Shown here in pieces: positions 29,491 to 61,635 of a stretch of 64,000 bases of DNA (positions within the stretch are counted from its first letter, which is position 1; every line of letters begins with the position of its first letter). A model generated the notes under the pieces. That model was not told where the DNA came from. It ran no database searches and saw only the letters and a list, made by a program, of their open reading frames with translations. The translations under genes and the position numbers were made by a program. Source of the stretch: Polytrichum commune (lineage: Eukaryota > Streptophyta > Polytrichopsida > Polytrichales > Polytrichaceae); the NCBI GenBank assembly GCA_950295325.1, contig OX485803.1, forward strand, positions 11,904,001 to 11,968,000, given 5' to 3'.

Positions 29491-30150
29491 ATGACATGGA
29501 AACCCATTTCCTCAACGAGGTCATCCTAGATATGACCACGAGGTTTCAAATTGATCATCGGAAGACCACACCTTACCACCCTCAAACAAATGGACAAGCT
29601 GAGAGGGTCAACCAGACGTTAGTAAGTATATTGTTGAAGACAATGCACGACTCTAACATCAAGTTACCGACAACGTTGTGGGCATACCGGACCACCTACA
29701 AAGTCATAACGCGAGCTACCATTTTTTTTCTAGTTTATAAAATTGAAGTCGTTTTGCCTATCGGGTTCAAAATATCTTCTCTTCGTGTTGCAATAAACAC
29801 CCGACTACGAGAGGATCAATTTGTGTATAATAAACTAATAATGTTGGAAAATTTAGATGAGGCAAGGAGGAGTTATGCTCAGCATGTTGAGACAATCCAA
29901 CATTGACAGAAGATTTTATTTCACCAAAATTATAAACTACGTGCTCTCTAACGGGGGATGTTGCTCTTATTATAAACTGCAAGGAACCTAGACTTTCTTA
30001 GCAAATTTGATGCAGTGTGATTAGGTCCATATTTTATAAAGGATTTTCTTTTCCCAACAACTCAATACAGTTGGAAACATTGAACGGAGAGTTGTTTCCG
30101 ACTCATATTTCAAGAAGTCATTGCAAGGAATATAAAATTTGATTCGTAAA
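29491..30150 (+). mobile_element. Ty3/gypsy fossil: integrase part
   Basis: Fragment of an LTR retrotransposon integrase, recognised by the HPQTNGQAERVN core motif and the WAYRTTYK block near 29690. Weak C-terminal similarity continues to about 30150. No LTR was identified on either side. It is partial and broken in several places, so an old copy. Confidence 0.7.
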
Positions 30151-32559: not shown

Positions 32560-33685
32560 GGCTACCTACAACCAATTCGTCTATTTTTTATTTAAGGGGT
32601 TTTAAGTCCTCAATATTATTGGCTTTCTTAGCATTCCCCTTTTCTTCTTCCTTCTTTGATCATCATCGTCAGAATAACTATTCGATTCTTCACTTGAATC
32701 ATCATTGCGCATTCTTTCCTTTTCATCTTGCCTATCTCCACTTTTCATGCGGAGGCCAATGCCTCTTTCAAGGTGTCACTTGGTAAAATATCTAAGTATT
32801 CTTTGTATTCTTTTCCTTATTCCATTTATGAACCAAGTCTTCTTAATTTGTTATGCGGGTGTGGGATGAATTTTTGCCGCTACCACCATTACACGTTTGT
32901 AGAACTCTTCTACAAATTCTCCTTTCTTTTGTTTTACATCCAATAGATTGTTGATGATTTCTCCTTTCGATTCGGTTGATGAGAGTCGTTGTATGAAAGC
33001 CATTCTTATGTCATCCCGATTCAAAAAGTGGTTGCTTGGGAATTGAGTGTACCATTCTAGTACTTTCTTTTTGAGGGTTACTGGAAACAACCTTAGCTTC
33101 TCAGCATTGGCCCCTTCTTGATTTGCTTGACATATGTTGATGAACTCTTGTATGTAGGTGTCAAGGTCTCTTTTCCCCTTCTAGGTAGGAAGAGGTGTCT
33201 TCTCCCTTCTAGGTATTAGCAATATATCTCCCAACATGGTGGTGTTTCTACTTTCTCCTCCTCCTCCAAGGTTTCTTCCGGAATTAGTTGTTCCACTACC
33301 AAATTGCCCACCTAAAGTGTTGAAGTTGTTTCCTCTTGTGTTTAAATTATAGTTTCCGAGGTTGAATCCTCCAGTGTCTCTTGGTTGAATATTTTCTCCC
33401 AAGATGTTGTTCTCACTTCCTTAAATGCCTTTACTTTTTGTAAGAAATTCTCAAATTTTTGGTTAACTTGTCTTGATGTTTTTTCTTCACTTTGAGTTGT
33501 TGTTGATTCTCCACTTGTGAGGGGTCCCTTGCCTACCTAGCTCCCTTTTGATTATTGTGCAAAATATAGATTTCGAGGATTCCCTTCTCTAGTCTTTGTT
33601 TAAAATGTTCCCACATGAGTGACGGAGTCTCCACTTCCTCCTTGGTTTCTACTAACCTCTGTGTCACTATCGGGTTTGTAGGATG

Positions 33686-34275
33686 CAGAGCCCAACATTT
33701 CCCTTCGAATTTGTACCCATACCCAGACCATGACCATCAGCAACGACCTATGCCCACCCATGCCCACCCATAGCATGACATGTGTCCACTCATGCCCACC
33801 CATGCCCACCCATAGCATGAATGTGTCCACCCATGCCCACCCATGCCCACCCATAGCATGAATGTGTCCACCCATGCCCACCCATGCTATTCAAATTGCG
33901 CCCATGTATTCAAAAATTGTGCCAATGTAGTCAACCTTGCCCAGTGGCTTTTGTATTTTGGAGCTTTCAACTTCACTACTTTAAGAGAAAGTCATAAGGG
34001 GTTAGTAGAGTAATCCAGCATGTAACACAGTCCGGTCCTCCACGCAACCGTCGAAAGCATTTGAATGAGAGCTCATTCAATATGCTTTGCTATAGCCCAT
34101 GCCCACCCACGAACAATAATATTGCACCCACGCCCACCCATGAAAAATAATATCGCACCCACGCCCACCCATGCCCGCCCATGAACATAATATCGCACCC
34201 ATGCCCACCCAAAACCCATGGGCATGGGTGGGCATGGGCATGGGCATGGGCATGGGCACCCAATGTTGGGCTCTG
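33686..34275. mobile_element. hAT-like non-autonomous element filled with a minisatellite, 590 bp
   Basis: Begins CAGAGCCCAACATT and ends with the perfect 14-bp reverse complement. GTAGGATG flanks both sides (33678-33685 and 34276-34283), an exact 8-bp target-site duplication as made by hAT transposases; CAGAG is a usual hAT start. The interior holds no transposase. Two minisatellite blocks dominate: about 33750-33895 (41-42 bp unit, three copies, CATAGCATGAATGTGTCC plus CCCATGCCCACC) and about 34097-34262 (CCCACGCCCACCCATG units with AATAATATCGCA). Confidence 0.85.
34200..34262 (-). repeat. G-rich/C-rich inversion with G-quadruplex potential
   Basis: Near the right end the repeat flips strand: C-rich CCCATGCCCACCC is followed after AAAACCCATG by GGGCATGGGTGGGCATGGG. 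The plus strand then carries at least six GGG runs with CAT or T loops (about 34217-34259), which fits the G3N1-7 quadruplex rule. Confidence 0.6.
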
Positions 34276-34450
34276 GTAGGATGGGCTTTGGTTTAAGTCT
34301 TCATTGATGCTTGAAGACGAAGGTGAAAGTGATCTAGACACTTCAAGCCCAACGGCTCTTTGCCTAGCTATTCTTTCGTAACGTTCAACTCACTCTTTCA
34401 TTTGTCTCTCAACTCTATCTTCTACGGTCTTGGGGTTTACGCCATGTTGC

Positions 34451-53250: not shown

Positions 53251-53699
53251 CTTACAAACATACTCTCTCACAAAACCTACACTCCGGTTGTTCACATTGG
53301 GTTACCAAAATATGTTTTGTCGTTTGTGTTTATCTAGAAGCATGGAACTTTCAATAGTGTACGTTTTGTAACCTAGATGTGTTTTAAAAACATAAGTTAG
53401 TACTAACGCTTCATTTTTTTAATAAGGATATTTAAAATTTATTATATACAAGTTAAAAAAAAATTAGATACCAATTCAATGGATTGTGATATCCACTTAT
53501 TCTAATGTTTAAAACTAAAACCTTACTTCTCTATTTAAACAAAACTCTTTACTCTTCATTTAAACCAATCAATCGTTCACTCAAACCACTTAAACCTCAT
53601 TTTTTTTTCATGCATGATCACTTGTTGTATTCATCACTCAAGTCTCTTATATCACTTCTGCAAACTCATACATCATTCATAGGTCACGTCATTCATGTA
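53251..53699. other. No gene recognised
   Basis: AT-rich; the left end of the 175-codon open frame at 53505-54032 falls here but looks non-coding. Confidence 0.35.
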
Positions 53700-53930
53700 G
53701 AGTTTTTAGGCCTCTCACCAATGGTCTTCAGTGATTTCCTAAGCTTGGTCAATGATTTCCACCGCACGTCGAAGGTCTTCAATGCCTTTAAACTCCTCCA
53801 AGATCTTAAATGCCTCCAAACTCCTTTAAGTTCATCAGTACCTTCAAGCTCATCCAAGGTCCTCAACGCCTCCATATTCCTCCAAGATCGCCAATGCCTA
53901 CAAATTCTTCCAAGGTCTCCGACTCCTTCA
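53700..53930. repeat. Imperfect short-period repeat (CTCCAAGATC-type)
   Basis: Variants of CTCCAAGGTCTTCAATGCCT recur with a period of roughly 30-60 bp (about 53775, 53797, 53855, 53881, 53911). Both strands stay open as a result, explaining the long Ser/Leu-rich frame here. Confidence 0.45.
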
Positions 53931-55201
53931 AATTTTGAATGCCCAATTCATAATGACTCACCATCCTTCTTCCACCCCTTAATTTTTCTTTCCCCTTGCC
54001 CCCTTCAGCCAATAGGAAACCATTGGGGTTAGGGCGTTAAAGACCACTAAACGGCTAGGTAATGGCCGATGTTGGTAAAGTCTAACCTTCCCTAACCTTA
54101 ACTACAAGTTCTATCTACCAAACCCTTCCTACCAAACCCTTCCTATCAAATCATCTCGGTTGTGAACTCAAGACCGGTTTTCAACTAACATGATTAATAC
54201 AACATCATATTAATTTCCATCTACAAACATACTCGGAATAATAATAACACATATAGAAGCTCATGTTTTAACTAGTAACTGGCCCGCATCACGACAACAT
54301 GTAGGAGGTTCAAAAGAAAACATGTGCTCAACATTTCTTTGGAGTTTACCTACGCAAAGGAAATTTATGAGTTGTATGCAACTAAAAAATATATATTATA
54401 TGAAACACACTTCGACATCCATACACCATTTTGAGGTTTGAAGTATTTTTGCATAAGTTACCCAGAGGTATCATAACATAGAACCCCTATAGAAGAAGAC
54501 TATATTGATTATCCCATTCAGTGAGGATTGGCTAATAATGCATGTGGGAAAGTTGTGAAGGTAATACTAAATTTCTTTATCCTATGGATTAGTGCCCCTA
54601 GAAGATCTAGGGTTTTGAGAGCCCATAGTGTCTCGTTACTTGGCTCAAGCTTCAAAGCACCTTCAAGCGTGCACTAGTTTTCTTAAAATCTACAGTAAAT
54701 GATCATGTATTCATGAAAATTTAGCCCTAACTGATTTTGAGATTTGTCAAAATAATGCATGTTGTGGGAATTAGAACCACACACACTAAACATGATAATT
54801 GGTGTAGTATCAAGGCGTCCTCTCAAAATTACATGTGTCACATGCCTTGTACCCTATTCCACTCCGCTTGTAAAAAGGCATGGATTTCTTTCCAAATTTT
54901 GATATTGATTCAATGTGCATTAATTATCGATACCTATTGATTATTTATCAATAAATAAGCTGAGTTGATAAACTCTTCAAGAACCAAAAGATGGCACAAT
55001 AATTCAAAACATATTTTAAGGTCATTGGAAAAAAAAACCATTCTCAATGGTCAACCTTGTTTTCCTTTGAGACATCTATTTGGGTTTGTTTTGCAACAGA
55101 TGCCAGATGAGCTCGAAACATTATTCATTTAAGAACATGTAGTATTTTATATCATTTTCTCATCCATTCTCTAACATGATCAATCTCAATTTTGTTGACC
55201 T
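53931..55201. other. No gene recognised
   Basis: AT-rich; CTACCAAACCCTTC is doubled at about 54115-54142. Nothing else supported. Confidence 0.35.
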
Positions 55202-61189: not shown

Positions 61190-61635
61190 ATTGGTTAGGA
61201 TCCCAATGTTTCCAAGTCCAACTGGTTATAGGTTGTGATATTTCGGGTTTTTTTTCCATGAATTTGAGGTACATTTCACAAGTTCCTCTAAAATGATGGG
61301 TAATTATCTTGAATTCTTGAACATCAACTGGTTACAAATTGTGATCTTTTGAATTTTCTTTATGATTTTGAGGTGCATTTCATAGATTCCTCTGAATAAT
61401 GGGTAATATGCCTGAAGTCTTAAACATCAAAAGGTTGTAATCTTTCAGCTTTTCTTTGTGAATTTGAGGTACATTTCACATATTCCTCTAAGATGAGGAT
61501 GATTATCATGAAGTCTTGAACATCAAGAGGTTGTGATCTTTCAGTTTTTCTTTATGAATTTGAGGTGCATTTCACAGATTCCTCTAAAATGATGGGTAAT
61601 ATGGTTGAAGTCTTGAACATCAACCGGTTATTTGT
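61190..61635. repeat. Tandem array, about 4.5 units of 96-104 bp
   Basis: Units start with AATTTGAGGTRCATTTCA at 61261, 61365, 61461 and 61557, preceded by a partial unit from about 61190. Each ends with GAACATCAA..GGTT.TGATCTTTC. Read on the minus strand the units give related ~33-residue peptides (VKCTSNS, RKAER), but stops interrupt them. Confidence 0.8.

Follow-up and report, generated by a model that had tools for sequence, protein, structure and literature searches.

A short transposon whose interior looks like a minisatellite raises the question of which of the two is at work: whether the element carries an independent repeat and could seed satellite arrays elsewhere, as the initial annotation of this locus proposed, or whether the repeats belong to the transposon itself. 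The element lies at positions 33686-34275 of the 64,000-nucleotide stretch that was analysed (the window), which is C1:11904001-11968000 of a 408-Mb genome assembled in 64 contigs. Contigs C1-C7, to which the genomic coordinates below refer, are 42-78 Mb each and 406 Mb summed.

Structure of the element and its insertion site

The element is 590 bp long and has the layout GTAGGATG, 14-bp terminal inverted repeat (TIR), 562 bp, 14-bp TIR, GTAGGATG, occupying 33678-34283 in total. The perfect 14-bp ends and the exact 8-bp duplications of the initial annotation agree to the base (TIR 14/14, duplication 8/8). The parts distinguished in the element and its flank are the following:

32818-33093, - strand: decayed LTR-retrotransposon gag-like relic in the host sequence outside the element (PF03732, E=1e-4, 22.9 bits, just below the curated cut-off of 24.1 bits)
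33678-33685, no strand: left target-site duplication GTAGGATG, 8/8 identity with 34276-34283
33686-33699, + strand: left TIR CAGAGCCCAACATT, 14/14 against the right TIR; corresponds in larger relatives to the transposase gene's 3' end
33700-33745, + strand: TIR-proximal subterminal segment (ACCCATACCCAGACCATG...), positions conserved across 81 elements
33746-33887, + strand: left subterminal array, 3.4 copies of a 41-bp higher-order unit of CCCATGCCCACC, GCCCA inward
33927-33934, no strand: deletion junction (GTAGTCAA), left side = L021 3' end, right side = L018 5' end
33935-34094, - strand: non-repeat stretch, originating in the 5' region of the larger relatives (L018 alignment; L018-L022)
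34095-34211, + strand: distal array of the right side, built of 31/40-bp units (CCCACGCCCACCCATG...; Tandem Repeats Finder: 34096-34211)
34198-34238, no strand: inverted repeat at the strand inversion, arms 34198-34211 and 34225-34238, 14 bp, 100% complementary, 13-nt spacer
34219-34257, - strand: right TIR-proximal GCCCAT run, inward, 39 nt (17-45 nt across 17 sister copies)
34220-34256, + strand: overlapping G-quadruplex motifs, as sequence motif only
34262-34275, - strand: right TIR, reverse complement of CAGAGCCCAACATT; the 5' end in larger relatives
34276-34283, no strand: right target-site duplication GTAGGATG, copy of the left one

The tandem arrays first noted are clearly present, and the left one (33746-33887) shows 96% matches between its 41-bp units. 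That the element contains little besides two such blocks was overstated: a central stretch of about 200 bp (33888-34094) is mostly without repeats, and Tandem Repeats Finder delimits three blocks, with a hexamer block at 34217-34258 (6-bp unit, 7.3 copies). The inversion within the array is real. The strand switches at about 34208-34219, between the final + strand GCCCA at 34203 and the first + strand TGGGC at 34219, and forms an inverted repeat near one end. The quadruplex potential also holds as a sequence motif, G3+N1-7 patterns being found on both strands of the 590 bp. No open reading frame of at least 95 aa overlaps the element, which encodes no transposase, and an Rfam search of the whole window returned no match. 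The long terminal inverted repeats of a foldback element are absent: the perfect match ends at 14 bp, and a comparison of the first 60 bases of both ends shows 32 mismatches.

When both flanks, joined with one duplication, were used as a query, they aligned to related sequences at C4:55489838-55490231 (query 4-400, 75%) and C2:46365522-46365900 (query 1-391, 73%), among others, with no large gap. Since related flanks are uninterrupted elsewhere, the element lies in a dispersed repeat, into which the 598 additional bases were inserted.

A hAT family and its transposase-bearing relatives

The window copy is not a lone one. The exact 14-mer TIR occurs 490 times genome-wide (246 forward, 244 reverse), with no occurrence of the reversed-pattern control, and a 31-nt left-end pattern is found at 496 places with at most three mismatches (control 0). 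Elements were accepted when one TIR had at most one mismatch, the other at most four, and the duplication matched in at least 7/8 positions. This yielded 82 distinct TIR-bounded elements from 104 loci, 154-1925 bp in length (median 507); 17 of the loci gave no accepted element. Among the 57 loci taken solely for an exact TIR (30 + 27), 48 contained one. The duplications are exact in 71 of the 82 elements and 7/8 in the other 11, a match of at least 7/8 being an acceptance condition; displaced flanking 8-mers reached this level in none of 410 comparisons. With 490 exact 14-mers against none in the control, and none of the displaced 8-mers matching, the element ends are not due to chance. The 71 exact duplications show a target preference of the form nTnnnnAn: T at the second position in 50, A at the seventh in 48, and both in 30, in flanks with ~30% T and ~30% A. 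The same pattern is given for the hAT element Hermes in the relevant part of PMC10368747.

The hAT dimerisation domain (PF05699) has at least 150 matches in the genome, in a search that scored the best 150 of its 1060 candidates. On C1, 14 of the 29 listed matches have an exact, correctly oriented TIR 125-257 bp past their C-terminal side, a placement with a chance of 0.05% at a random point. Five more lie near the left-end 31-mer (four at 138-367 bp, one at 2.5 kb) in a comparison that used six left ends picked from the genome-wide list; the remaining ten have neither an exact TIR nor the 31-mer nearby. The domain is enclosed (E=2e-20) in L063, a 1925-bp element with the exact duplication GAAGGCAT, and is also found inside the L021 element. 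The hAT-like character first proposed is thus borne out by the 8-bp duplications, the nTnnnnAn targets and the PF05699 domains inside elements with these ends. A 161-aa transposase stretch of L063, used as a query, gave 45 matches, the longest open frame counting 698 aa (C5:19126074, 90% identity). Against Pfam, this stretch hit no family at E<=0.1, and a zf-BED profile search found no match in this genome, nor in the control genomes. This is an abundant, genuine hAT family with ends made of minisatellite-like arrays.

String and topic searches did not find the family in print. The strings CAGAGCCCAACATT, AGAGCCCTACATT and AGAGCCCAACATTT were not found in a literature search whose coverage excludes most subscription journals and the repeat databases, and CAGAGCCCAACA appeared solely in papers that are, by their titles, on other subjects. 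A search combining hAT, MITE, minisatellite, tandem repeat, subterminal and copy number returned only Silene repeats, judged by title, and one combining quadruplex with hAT/MITE showed no title on repeat-array ends.

The window copy itself is an internal-deletion derivative of larger, transposase-bearing relatives. Its right 349 bases align to L018 at the latter's 5' end and its left 249 bases to L021 at the 3' end, and the two alignments overlap in GTAGTCAA at 33927-33934; a 5' match and a 3' match that meet at this point indicate an internal deletion. As in a Ds-like deletion derivative, both ends are common to the larger relatives and a single junction joins them. Seventeen short sister copies share the deletion structure and align across the region at <=2.9% divergence; 14 of them contain an exact copy of an 18-nt string that spans the right side of the junction. 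The subfamily-specific left-end pattern occurs at 23 places (<=3 mismatches), of which 18 are copies analysed here (the 17 short ones and L021). Three of the other five left ends (C5:25985291, C3:46972436 and C7:34683705) are 159-253 bp from transposase matches, and the last two (C7:6425460 and C4:54407506) are 2.6 and 11 kb from such matches.

Part of an ethylene-receptor histidine kinase (HisKA; L022:1769-2512 and L019:1775-2062) is also present in larger relatives of the same subfamily, its best solved-structure match being Ethylene response sensor 1 (ERS1-like, E=5e-31). The fragment is located 2177-2182 bp from a transposase match at five loci (C3:46975629-46982726, C4:54392347-54393651, C4:54440805-54442109, C5:25981421-25982164 and C7:6419151-6419942), and a candidate source gene, 92% identical, lies at C7:823175-823966. 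Gene capture by hAT elements (Pack-hAT) is known, according to part of PMC8903248. In L018, a LINE-like endonuclease frame (635-1549) adjoins the 5' end of the family, its PF03372 match (E=0.0017) being below the cut-off.

Repeats at the ends and their turnover

The repeats were examined across the family. The decamer CCCATGCCCA is present in 81 of the 82 elements. The exception, the distant relative L054 (1501-1906), retains CCCA repeats as well as the inverted pair, and the repeats of its right end are of the ACCCACACCCA type. In the 81 others, GCCCA points inward from each end: 293 inward against 0 outward in the left 100 bp, and 301 against 33 in the right 60 bp. Its density is 31.5 per kb in the elements compared with 1.9 per kb in the flanks, and the motif also occurs within the TIR itself. 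In 79 of the 81 elements the first GCCCA past the right TIR occupies position 19, and in 77 of them the first ACCCA of the left end occupies position 30. An inverted pair near the right end is found in 80 of the 82, both misses being one base off the search pattern. The TIR-proximal repeats hence have a stable phase and orientation, whatever the subfamily or the length of the element, while the distal repeats and the inverted pair shift. The shortest copy, of 154 bp, is hardly more than TIRs and repeats, and copies with transposase remnants also have GCCCA-type repeats at both ends.

The best reading is that the GCCCA-type array is a functional end region of the family and not a passenger. Repeats that are bound to the ends, mostly inward and fixed in phase in 81 of the 82 elements point to working ends; a passenger minisatellite is rejected, the repeats being the end sequences of the family at both ends. 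The notion of the element as a vehicle for an independent minisatellite is not supported, since the same conserved ends are seen in copies that retain transposase remnants.

The distal parts of the arrays are, on the other hand, highly unstable. The 17 sister copies differ by a mean divergence of 1.7% over ~253 unique sites. Among them, the left array ranges from 28 to 256 nt with 0-6 marker units, the 41-bp marker unit being missing from L016. In the 15 copies measured on the right side, the distal array is 83-146 nt long and the inverted pair is 21-49 nt from the right TIR. The array-length combination differs in all 17 copies: the right sides of L009 and L013 fall outside the measurement, and the left length of L013 is unique, whereas that of L009 is shared with three copies, from which its hexamer run tells it apart. 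The initial annotation had expected arrays of varying length among copies, and this is what is seen. Even the nearest sister pairs (0.4% divergence) are already unlike in their arrays; array unit turnover is therefore faster than point mutation.

Mechanism, alternatives and known systems

The window copy is probably a non-autonomous, Ds-like hAT member whose repeat arrays would serve as subterminal transposase-binding sites. An internal deletion joined the 3' and 5' ends of larger, transposase-bearing relatives. A transposase acting in trans would then cut the 14-bp ends and reinsert the element, yielding the 8-bp duplications. The CCCATGCCCACC/GCCCAT arrays would constitute the binding sites, with GCCCA as their core, multiplied into tandem clusters. 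The repeats next to the TIRs are fixed in position, and the inverted pair at one end gives the element two dissimilar ends. Farther in, the repeat number would shift by whole units, through slippage or template switching during gap repair, and such whole-unit changes may explain the minisatellite appearance of the arrays.

The maize Ac/Ds system (with internal-deletion Ds, Ds1 and Ds2) is organized in a similar way: in the sections of PMC3260210 concerned, it likewise combines 8-bp duplications, a short TIR, a repeated subterminal motif and short derivatives of a transposase-bearing element. The moss family differs by its motif (GCCCA/CCCATGCCCACC vs. AAACGG in Ac), by its TIR (14 bp vs. 11 bp) and by the arrangement of the motif in minisatellite-like tandem arrays of variable length. 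The same sections describe cooperative binding of the Ac transposase to the subterminal AAACGG repeats, the terminal 200 bp of each end being required for full activity. They also state that maize Ds-l3 and Ds-l4, which possess the repeats, gave no excision in tests, and that some Ds1 elements without repeats move. The lack of excision of Ds-l3 and Ds-l4 in these tests indicates that repeats alone do not make an element mobile, which counts against an easy parallel with Ac.

Hermes, a hAT element of the housefly, resembles the moss family in its nTnnnnAn targets, its many subterminal sites and its palindromic pairs at one end (in Hermes, the left end only), where the pair of sites that two BED domains bind is quasi-palindromic (part of PMC10368747). 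The Hermes motif is, on the contrary, AAG(T/C), with interspersed sites and a strict phasing of the pair from the TIR, as described in the same part of PMC10368747. The inverted pair of the moss family is located farther in, at a distance that varies with the hexamer run. Foldback elements of the Galileo/Tetris type also have tandem repeats near both ends, and those of Galileo provide additional binding sites for the transposase (cited in the passages of PMC4079207 on these elements). Their repeats, however, are placed inside long TIRs, and the Galileo transposase has a THAP domain. In those passages of PMC4079207, the Tetris repeats build satellite-like arrays of kb size, unseen for the moss family.

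If the arrays are binding sites, their length could act as a tunable dose of such predicted sites, rewritten at or around transposition by gap repair or hairpin processing: copies with favourable arrays would spread, and site number would evolve through minisatellite mutation, with mobility as the selected trait. This is a tentative idea and rather unlikely to be correct as it stands. It is improbable that the arrays are functionless products of decay or slippage at low-complexity, replication-prone ends. The distal array length does vary freely, and L016 exists without the 41-bp marker unit, as such decay would produce; the TIR-proximal repeats, however, do not change in phase or orientation between subfamilies or with element length, and copies as short as 154 bp retain the repeats when the rest is lost.

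More improbable still is a hAT element that acquired a selfish minisatellite, which hitch-hikes, spreads and may seed satellite arrays, even if the unequal array lengths of near-identical copies speak for it. This reading does not fit the repeats, which 81 of the 82 copies have and whose start keeps a constant distance from either TIR, nor the genome-wide distribution of the unit. With <=2 mismatches allowed, the 10-bp unit forms runs of 42 nt at just five places (six hits), and the three on C1 are 61-267 bp from an exact TIR. The search for a 36-nt run of the hexamer gave 33 hits with much overlap, the longest stretch being ~66 nt. For a 22-mer of the unit, 100 of 205 genome places were listed and the TIR comparison rests on the 36 places on C1: 32 of these have an exact TIR no more than 1 kb away, and another 2 adjoin a left end of the family. 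The free arrays postulated in the initial annotation are thus hardly found, 34 of the 36 C1 array sites being in or beside family members; family members leave C1:36333271 and C1:47034418 unexplained. Long free arrays are not visible genome-wide in the 22-nt, 42-nt and hexamer searches, although assembly gaps or collapsed regions could hide some, and satellite seeding is not supported.

Transposons of rice have reportedly spread minisatellites (a case ascribed to Inukai, 2004). The Xenopus MITEs Xmix/Xstir and miDNA4 are, like the moss elements, short DNA transposons with tandem repeats and bursts of copies (part of PMC9659126). Published repeats of MITEs and foldback elements that feed satellites, namely miDNA4 (in the same part of PMC9659126) and Tetris TIR-220 (in the passages of PMC4079207 on that element), speak for the selfish minisatellite. 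In contrast with the Xenopus and rice cases, the repeats of the moss family are subterminal and oriented from the ends, and no satellite offspring was found.

That the G-rich strands maintain the repeats as quadruplexes or hairpins, stalling replication or regulating transposition in place of protein binding, is very improbable: 75 of the 81 left halves and all 81 right halves contain such motifs, compared with 2 of 80 left flanks (300 bp), but they arise from any tandem GCCCA repeat, the inward orientation from each end is left unaccounted for, and the right end folds no better than its composition allows (z -1.5 and -1.9; 17 and 10 of 200 shuffles equal).

With binding-site arrays as the preferred reading, the 17 sisters, near-identical outside their arrays, form together with the larger relatives that have transposase frames a natural series on site number and arrangement in relation to hAT mobility. 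The series also bears on how binding sites become minisatellites. An apparent satellite vehicle is explained away here: repeats within a short transposon can constitute the functional ends of that element.

Some further features were noted in and near the window. A family member of 466 bp (L042, duplication 7/8) is located at C1:11971452, ~3.5 kb past the window end. Within the window, an open frame at 29496-29906 resembles, by eye, what we take to be a retrotransposon integrase fragment. A tandem duplication of 308 bp (97% matches) occupies 2023-2636, four repeats of a 96-bp unit (78% matches) are found at 61230-61623, and an open frame of 175 aa at 53505-54032 holds 28-bp tandem repeats.
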